Assembly: GCF_001672295.1 (NCBI RefSeq)
Contig: NZ_JXMS01000017.1
Location: 1-64,000, forward strand
Length of the DNA: 64,000 bases
Reading direction: 5' to 3'
From: Halodesulfovibrio spirochaetisodalis
GTDB lineage: Bacteria; Desulfobacterota; Desulfovibrionia; Desulfovibrionales; Desulfovibrionaceae
A program made the translations under genes and the position numbers. Shown here piece after piece: positions 36 through 2,062 of this stretch (the first letter of the stretch is position 1; every line of letters starts with the position of its first letter). The notes under the pieces are model-generated. The model saw only the letters and a list, made by a program, of their open reading frames with translations. It was not told the DNA's origin and searched no databases.

Positions 36-1685
36 TTATCTGACCATACCACGTTCCCAGTCGATACGATCAATAATCACCTGAGATAACTCATCCAGTC
101 CCATGCGGGTCTTGGCCGCAATATGAATGGCCTTCGGATATAGATGCCTCAGGGCTTCCTGCTGTTCTTCATCAAGCGTATCCCACTTGTTCAGGATCAA
201 CAGGGTCGGAATCTCATGCAGTTCCATATCTTCAAGAATTCGCTCTACAGCAGACACCTGCTTTTCAAGCTCCGGGTGCCCAGCATCTGCAACATGAAGT
301 AGCAAATCAGCTGCTTCCAGCTCTTCAAGCGTCGCACGAAACGCCTCACGCAACTCTTTAGGCAAGTTTCGAATAAACCCTACTGTATCCGTAAGGATAA
401 GTTCCCGTTCTTCAGGGAAGCGCAAGCGGCGCGTTGTCGGGTCAAGTGTTGCGAATAATTTATTTTCCGCAAGCACAGTAGAGTTTGTCAACGCATTCAA
501 CGTGGTTGATTTACCAGCATTCGTATACCCAACAAGAGCAGCTACAGGAACACGAGCTTTATTACGCCGGTCACGCGCATATGCACGCTGTTTGCGCAAC
601 GTGCCAAGTTCCTTTTTAAAGCGGGCAATACGGTCACGCACCTTACGACGGTCAGTTTCAAGCTTGGTTTCACCCGGCCCACGACCACCGATACCACCCA
701 TCAGTCTGTCCATTGCGCGGTTTTTCCCAACAAGACGAGGGAGTGCGTACTGCAACTGCGCCATTTCAACCTGCAATTTCCCTGCTCGGGTTGTTGCATG
801 CTGTGCAAAAATATCCAGAATAAGCTGGGTCCTGTCGATGACTTTTCGCTCAGTCACTTCAGTCAAGTTACGCAGCTGTGCAGGAGAAAGCTCACCATCA
901 AAAATGATCATGGATGCGTTACCCTGCAGGCAAAGGATTTCCAACTCAGCAAGCTTACCTTTACCCATAATAAATTTGTGATTCACCTGATGCACACGCT
1001 GCACAAGACGTCCTGCAACAGAAACGCCTGCGGTATCGGCAAGATCCGCAAGCTCATTCAAGTATGATTCCTGCACATCCTTAGGCTGCGTACTGACACT
1101 GACAAGCACTGCGTGTTCGGTACCACCCTGCTTTCGAGCACCATCTGCAGTTCGTGCCAGCTCTTCTTCAAGCGCATCTGTCTGGGATTCAAAGTCAATA
1201 TCAATATTATTCCATGACGTGGCCTGATGCACGTTATACGACGTACCATCCTTGGAAGGGACAGGAAGAATATGTGCTGACTGAAAATCAACAGGAGCAC
1301 CCATGCCGTCAACTGTGAGTACAGAAATAGAGTCAAGACGCAGGAAAAGCATATCCATTAAATCTTCCTGCGAAAGAAGTGAATCATTCAAGTGAGTGTG
1401 AATAAGACGTAAACCGCGCAAGCGGTCGCTGCTGGAACGGGCGCGAGGAAGTTCTGGAATATAGATGGCACCAGTGTCACCCACTAGAACCATCTGCGGT
1501 TTCCCCTGACGGTCGATGAGTAATGCGATCTGTCTGCCAACGCTGCGGGAAAGAGCCGCAAGCTCATGCGCCTGATCGGAAGTATATCCCTCTTTTACTG
1601 GATAACGGCGGGCAAAAAGCCGCTGGAGAGATTTTAACTGACTCGGTTTGAGTCCCTGTGTGTTGCCGAGAACCTTTGAGGCTAT
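36..1685 (-). CDS. hflX: GTPase HflX (ribosome-splitting), likely non-canonical start
   Basis: HflX binds the 50S subunit and splits stalled or stress-inactivated 70S ribosomes. The protein has the HflX N-terminal domain (HQVNHKFIMGKGKLAELE), a coiled linker, then the G domain with GYTNAGKST (G1), DTVGF (G3) and NKWD (G4). The first ATG (1493) gives 485 residues, but the frame stays open to the stop at 1728-1730 and the extra residues (for example KVLGNTQGLKPSQLK and ALLIDRQGKPQ) look like the conserved start of desulfovibrional HflX. That extension has no ATG, GTG, TTG or CTG. An AGGAG lies 7 nt before an ATA at 1683-1685, which I take as the likely start (549 residues). ATC at 1691 or a sequencing error are alternatives. 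The GTPase identity is certain; the start is not. Confidence 0.9.
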   Translation of the reverse strand: MASKVLGNTQGLKPSQLKSLQRLFARRYPVKEGYTSDQAHELAALSRSVGRQIALLIDRQGKPQMVLVGDTGAIYIPELPRARSSSDRLRGLRLIHTHLNDSLLSQEDLMDMLFLRLDSISVLTVDGMGAPVDFQSAHILPVPSKDGTSYNVHQATSWNNIDIDFESQTDALEEELARTADGARKQGGTEHAVLVSVSTQPKDVQESYLNELADLADTAGVSVAGRLVQRVHQVNHKFIMGKGKLAELEILCLQGNASMIIFDGELSPAQLRNLTEVTERKVIDRTQLILDIFAQHATTRAGKLQVEMAQLQYALPRLVGKNRAMDRLMGGIGGRGPGETKLETDRRKVRDRIARFKKELGTLRKQRAYARDRRNKARVPVAALVGYTNAGKSTTLNALTNSTVLAENKLFATLDPTTRRLRFPEERELILTDTVGFIRNLPKELREAFRATLEELEAADLLLHVADAGHPELEKQVSAVERILEDMELHEIPTLLILNKWDTLDEEQQEALRHLYPKAIHIAAKTRMGLDELSQVIIDRIDWERGMVR

Positions 1686-1709
1686 GACGATACTCCTAGT
1701 TGTTTCTAG

Positions 1710-1900
1710 TACCTCCGGCGACGGATATCAGCAGGATGCCTCCGGCGGCCTGAGAACCTTTTTGAAAAAAGGCTTCTCTGAACTCTCCAAAAACTTTTAT
1801 TAGCGAGACCAGCCCGTTTCTTATCTAGCTGGTCAGCTTCACCTACTGTCTATACCTACTCCTCAACTCCATATTCACCCTGTCGGTTTTTCAGGAGGGG
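1710..1900. repeat. Desulfovibrio-type intergenic repeat remnant
   Basis: The gap upstream of hflX holds two CTCCGG-type cores (near 1712 and 1740), a short dyad (CCTTTTTTCAAAAAGG on the minus strand, near 1755-1772) and a tail resembling the one at 37,840-37,875 (CAAAAACTTTTATTAGCGAG here, CAAACTTTTTACTTGCGAG there). I recall this arrangement from desulfovibrional genomes, usually between genes. It contains no supported coding sequence. Confidence 0.5.
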
Positions 1901-1945
1901 GAGTCTGAGGGGGAACCTCATTTATATCGAGAACAGATAAATTAA

Positions 1946-2062
1946 GACAAAATCGTGCCAGTGTAAGGCTCGAGAAAAAGCCAAGGTCGATGCATACAAA
2001 CCGTATGTGAGAGTTTGGCTTTTTTGAAGAAACGCAACAATGCGCGTTTTTGTCATCAATTT
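1946..2062 (+). repeat. Decayed ~117 bp repeat, copy 1
   Basis: This stretch runs from GACAAAATCGTGCCAGTG to TTTTGTCATCAATTT and aligns over its whole length, in the same orientation, with 2790-2908 on the other side of the IMP cyclohydrolase gene. Shared landmarks are GACAAA, a short AAGG, an A-rich run, a TATGT centre, a CTTTTT run, CAATG-GCG and TTGTCA-CAAT. The centre is an imperfect dyad. Confidence 0.6.

Follow-up and report, generated by a model that had tools for sequence, protein, structure and literature searches.

An AUA codon as the probable start of hflX in Halodesulfovibrio spirochaetisodalis, and AUA, AUC or AUU at the same place in most relatives examined

The hflX locus

The window, as we call the whole stretch of DNA analysed, comprises 64,000 nucleotides of Halodesulfovibrio spirochaetisodalis (contig NZ_JXMS01000017.1, positions 1 to 64,000). 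At its beginning lies a frame on the minus strand that opens past a TGA (1730-1728) and closes with a stop ending at position 36 (Table 1). The encoded protein is HflX, as residues 192-539 score 460 bits on the curated model TIGR03156 (GTP_HflX; cut-off 216.75). A first-pass annotation, made from the sequence alone, had reported that this frame contains no ATG, GTG, TTG or CTG between the TGA and an ATG at 1493-1491, and both the sequence and its translation confirm this. The AGGAG that it placed seven bases before an ATA codon (1685-1683) is likewise confirmed in the sequence; the ATG is 64 codons downstream of this ATA.

We use AUH for ATA, ATC or ATT (AUA, AUC or AUU) at the start position. 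The frame holds a second AUH codon, an ATC at 1691-1689. Since this ATC is separated from the AGGAG by just 1 nt, and four of the five nearest relatives within the genus have TTC there, the ATA is the likelier start of the two.

Two dispersed repeats are found nearby. One of ~80 bp (window 1737-1814) is directly upstream of hflX and ends in GGCCGCCGGAGGC; the genome has 23 further partial copies at 73-94% identity, and the hairpin-like core has four further matches at no more than three mismatches. The other (window 1941-2060) lies between purH and hflX, with seven partial copies elsewhere in the genome.

Table 1. Features of the hflX locus (window coordinates)
Feature	Position	Strand	Evidence
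hflX coding region (549 aa), ATA to stop codon	36..1685	-	TIGR03156, 460 bits; dN/dS 0.043 over codons 2-64
Probable ATA start codon	1683..1685	-	Aligned codon AUH in 222/260 loci and in 56/58 in the order
Shine-Dalgarno AGGAG, 7-nt spacer to ATA	1693..1697	-	Well-placed Shine-Dalgarno in 209/222 AUH loci
In-frame TGA, upstream bound of the hflX frame	1728..1730	-	Sequence, translation
First in-frame ATG, rejected as start	1491..1493	-	Codons 2-64, before this ATG, under purifying selection

AUH start codons in related genomes

The HflX N-termini of relatives were compared in three sets, and a codon was accepted as the start if located 3-7 codons before a conserved Gly-Asn. For the order, the genomes of 59 relatives were searched, with a usable hflX in 58 and none in one genome that is 74% complete. 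A named set of 80 loci was reduced to 65 by removing start regions identical to ones already counted. For the phylum (Desulfobacterota), a profile of the N-terminal region was searched against 297 genomes, of which 221 matched (the window's own included) and 76 did not. The phylum sample consists of 139 of the 221 matches (the best 29, 80 chosen among the matches listed and 30 weaker ones); two are identical to counted loci, leaving 137, and about 81 matching genomes fall outside the count.

Among the resulting 260 distinct loci, hflX has an AUH start in 222 (92 ATC, 78 ATA and 52 ATT) and a canonical one in 31 (24 ATG, five TTG and two GTG), while six are ambiguous and one is neither. GTG and TTG are thus rare (7/260, at most 10 if ambiguous loci are counted). 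The AUH start is found in 56 of the 58 order genomes, the other two having ATG, in 64 of the 65 named loci (one ATG), and in 102 of the 137 loci of the phylum sample (28 canonical, six ambiguous, one neither). Its occurrence at the aligned codon is beyond chance, because across the 260 loci an AUH codon is present in 55% at codon -5 from the Gly-Asn and in 30% at -6, against 1-7% at each of the positions -14 to -7. The comparison of relatives that the first-pass annotation had suggested as a check therefore finds ATA, ATC or ATT kept at the start codon in most of them, and strongly supports its choice of the ATA as the best candidate. hflX translation very probably begins at an AUA codon, and not at an AUG; this start is well supported.

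Counted by family (195 genomes in 76 families, named loci excluded), AUH hflX is present in 56 of 76, in every genome read in 49 of them and in part of the genomes in seven; four of these mixed families have a canonical member and three an ambiguous one. The other 20 families have no clear AUH hflX among the members read, which indicates that the AUH start is dispensable. In family f21, hflX has TTG in three of four genomes and the fourth is ambiguous. Scored by eye, AUH is present in 17 of the 30 weaker phylum matches, so the trait thins with distance. The changes between AUH and canonical starts number at least 15 against a shuffled mean of 28, a rough number from a short, quick tree (195 genomes, ~105 N-terminal residues). 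No relative was found among the plasmids or viral contigs searched.

Some further features of these starts were recorded. In one locus (L223 of genome G071, family f19) the only plausible hflX start is ACG, and the other member of this family that was read has ATG. Among the 222 AUH starts, C occupies position -2 in 63% and a pyrimidine position -1 in 89%. Isoleucine codon usage was considered as the cause of the ATA and rejected; ATA accounts for 16.6% of internal isoleucine codons in 63 full-length ATA-start loci.

Shine-Dalgarno sequences, nearby stops and selection on the first codons

A well-placed Shine-Dalgarno sequence (at least four bases matching the consensus, at a spacing of 4-10) precedes 209 of the 222 AUH starts and only eight of the 31 canonical ones (Fisher p 4e-17, nominal as the sequences are related). 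At five dummy sites, the same definition is satisfied in 28-74 of 221-222 loci. An in-frame stop lies no more than two codons upstream of the AUH in 13 loci, and in L195 it stands immediately before the ATT start. Upstream of the AUH, the open frame is without ATG, GTG and TTG in 170 of the 222 loci, 146 of which are also without CTG; the other 52 have ATG, GTG or TTG somewhere in it.

The claim that the N-terminus of HflX reaches 64 codons upstream of the first ATG is borne out by the pattern of substitution. Among six same-genus genomes, dN/dS is 0.043 for codons 2-64, close to the values further along the gene (0.053 over codons 65-180, 0.030 over codons 181-549), which shows that the codons ahead of the first ATG are translated. 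Upstream of the Shine-Dalgarno sequence the six genomes diverge; in three, a TAG interrupts the frame seven codons ahead of the ATA.

These data bear on three other readings of the start. The first places it at the ATG at 1493-1491 (in the relatives, at other codons downstream), leaving the AUA untranslated; this ATG is the first canonical codon, and a mechanical ORF finder gives 36-1493. Against this, the codons that such a start would exclude are under the same purifying selection as the remainder of the gene, the first 110 HflX residues align across the phylum, and in 218 AUH loci the next in-frame ATG, GTG or TTG is anywhere between 3 and 108 codons away (median 40). Given the conservation, the Shine-Dalgarno sequence, the nearby stops and the purifying selection, both a start at 1493 and a sequencing error are very unlikely. 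The second reading, a canonical start in another upstream frame followed by a frameshift into hflX, might serve for a single genome; however, between offsets -60 and +30 no position has ATG, GTG or TTG in more than 11% of the 222 AUH loci (upstream maximum 6%), and the features actually conserved are the Shine-Dalgarno sequence and the AUH codon, which makes this reading highly improbable. Finally, although the window genome is a 59-contig draft, a sequencing or assembly error that put ATA in place of ATG or GTG has a negligible probability, contradicted as it is by independent assemblies that carry AUH (55 of the 57 other order genomes and 64 of 65 further named loci).

An RNA element in the 5' codons of hflX (window 1326-1685) was considered and dropped. 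Within the genus, conservation at fourfold sites in the first 120 codons is 0.93 in the first 20-codon block and 0.58-0.84 in the next five, compared with mostly 0.3-0.6 later in the gene; it is also raised at the start of the neighbouring purH (0.80, 0.72 and 0.79), and three other clades have no rise at the hflX start. RNA folding around the hflX start is not stronger than in shuffled sequences (z -0.35).

infC and other genes compared

For infC, 80 loci from the order and the phylum sample were scored by Shine-Dalgarno sequence and position; hflX was read in all but 11 of these genomes. The infC start is AUH in 70 of the loci, GTG in five, CTG in four and TTG in one, and the window genome's own infC is scored ATC. 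In two of the exceptions (L260, scored GTG, and L285, scored TTG) the script chose far-upstream codons, and an ATA stands at the usual place by eye. The analogy to infC drawn in the first-pass annotation gains weight from these counts. In the same order, the start is ATG in 30 of 30 obg loci, in 30 of 30 hpf loci and, at the conserved place, in all 28 readable frr loci (two of 30 are without the search motif), that is, in 88 of 88 readable loci. Among the five genes tested, AUH is habitual in hflX and infC alone.

In three infC loci (L354, L360 and L361, from the different families f43, f76 and f96) the start is scored as CTG behind a strong Shine-Dalgarno sequence, another non-canonical start for IF3.

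We also considered whether hflX and infC switch class together. Four genomes (f70 and f98) whose infC has GTG close to the conserved position have ATG in hflX, the script calling one of these ambiguous; they represent two families and may reflect one event. Eight genomes with canonical hflX keep AUH in infC, and in a ninth infC is scored CTG. The two genes therefore do not switch together, and co-switching, suggestive at best, was rejected.

The N-terminal region of HflX

No Pfam match was found for residues 1-195 (window 1101-1685, minus strand), and 33 relatives give single weak Pfam hits only. In a comparison with solved E. coli HflX, matches start at window residue 189 and the N-terminal part is unmatched. 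An AlphaFold2 model built with the 33 sequences has a pLDDT of 87. Its best VIA match is 5ld9 (JAMM1; Z 7.1, rmsd 3.4, 108 aligned), with a Z that the tool calls common, and nearly all of the 50 VIA matches listed are what we take to be JAB1/MPN/JAMM-type proteins. With Foldseek, the best match is 2kcq (E 2.7e-4), followed by JAMM/MPN chains at E of at least 1.7e-3, with TM-scores of 0.2-0.46.

The full JAMM motif, as given in PMC300881, is EXnHS/THX7SXXD. The HflX region departs from it, with H96-T97-H98, six residues, S105, two residues and D108; the invariant R51-Q52 precedes the second strand, where the glutamate would be expected, and there is no glutamate there. The 33-sequence alignment has H98 and D108 in every member, H96 in at least 90% and S105 in less than 90%. 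A sensible candidate reading of the model is that this HflX is fused to an MPN-like domain without catalytic function.

Comparison with known AUH starts

In Staphylococcus aureus, infC (AUA), ccpN (AUA) and cvfC1 (AUU) initiate at AUH codons. In poor medium, three AUH sites reach ~10% of the expression obtained with AUG, an attenuation that the authors ascribe to poor P-site decoding modulated by IF3 (PMC13009471, which also states IF3 autoregulation for E. coli infC). Like infC, hflX has an AUH codon after a strong Shine-Dalgarno sequence, conserved in relatives, in a gene acting on subunit association; unlike infC autoregulation, it concerns a different gene, for which we infer dependence on IF3. 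Conserved AUH codons with an extended Shine-Dalgarno sequence outside infC are also described for ccpN (S. aureus and B. subtilis) and cvfC1 (staphylococci). However, ccpN is a repressor and cvfC1 a small protein, neither being a ribosome factor, and their AUH conservation as stated in that source is narrower than that of hflX in the phylum sample. The hflX of E. coli K-12 belongs to the same GTPase family and has a non-AUG start, but this is annotated as TTG and not AUH; the gene is co-transcribed with hfq in a superoperon with sigma-70 and heat-shock promoters (PMC9067457). A literature search, largely at title level, returned no report of a non-AUG hflX start. Nor is one mentioned in the passages on hflX or start codons of PMC9067457, PMC12548453, PMC6310831, PMC7157823 and PMC8407246, the start-codon passages of the last concerning HipA.

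A possible link between HflX synthesis and IF3

HflX splits 70S ribosomes; the anti-association factor IF3 keeps the subunits apart (PMC9067457). In codon, conservation and Shine-Dalgarno sequence, hflX fits what can be read from DNA of an IF3-discriminated AUH start. We propose, with a probability of roughly 0.6, that hflX has a weak AUH start against which IF3 discriminates, and that selection maintains this start because it makes the synthesis of HflX responsive to IF3. The initiator tRNA would start hflX at the AUA (1685-1683), guided by the strong and well-spaced AGGAG. IF3 on the 30S subunit would reject the third-position mismatch of the AUH codon, as at infC, making initiation weak, and for this reason selection would have retained the AUH class in most lineages read. 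Excess IF3 would then hold HflX low, and more IF3-free 30S subunits would raise HflX together with IF3. The protein that splits ribosomes would in this way be coupled to the factor that prevents the separated subunits from rejoining. The site, its conservation, the Shine-Dalgarno sequence, the parallel to infC and the contrast to three other genes form the part of this explanation that the sequences support; the IF3 dependence of hflX and its physiological role are what we infer. As for the feedback imagined in the first-pass annotation, nothing points to a direct regulation of HflX by itself, and control through IF3 would be the more economical form.

The AUH start may instead merely keep HflX scarce, a poor codon with a strong Shine-Dalgarno sequence giving a low, constant level to which IF3 sensitivity is incidental. 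This is a real possibility, although a less probable one. In E. coli, HflX is described as dispensable in normal growth (PMC9067457) and is indeed scarce, with an estimated abundance ~100-fold below that of newly synthesised ribosomal proteins (PMC8407246, which also describes its synthesis as resuscitation from persistence begins). The TTG starts of family f21 and of E. coli would fit plain weakness equally well, and the ATG in 24 of 260 loci is also in its favour. However, a fixed weak start seems less natural here because the ordinary weak starts GTG and TTG are so rare while AUH is dominant, and AUH is shared with infC of the same sample but absent from obg, frr and hpf.

An extension of the IF3-responsive start is an ancient unit of two genes, hflX and infC, controlled in the phylum by start-codon discrimination, in which a shortfall of IF3 relative to the 30S subunits supplied would raise both IF3 and HflX. 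We advance this tentatively, at somewhat short of even odds; if true, the activity of IF3, and not a transcription factor, would set the ribosome-splitting capacity of the cell.

A practical consequence concerns annotation. A gene finder limited to ATG, GTG and TTG would misplace the start of hflX to the next such codon, typically some 40 codons downstream, and in the window the misplaced start would fall inside the N-terminal region without a Pfam match. To our knowledge, few conserved AUH starts are known apart from infC. The presence of such codons across the phylum in a second subunit-association gene offers a ready comparative test of why they persist, and an AUH start of hflX would tie IF3 to ribosome rescue.
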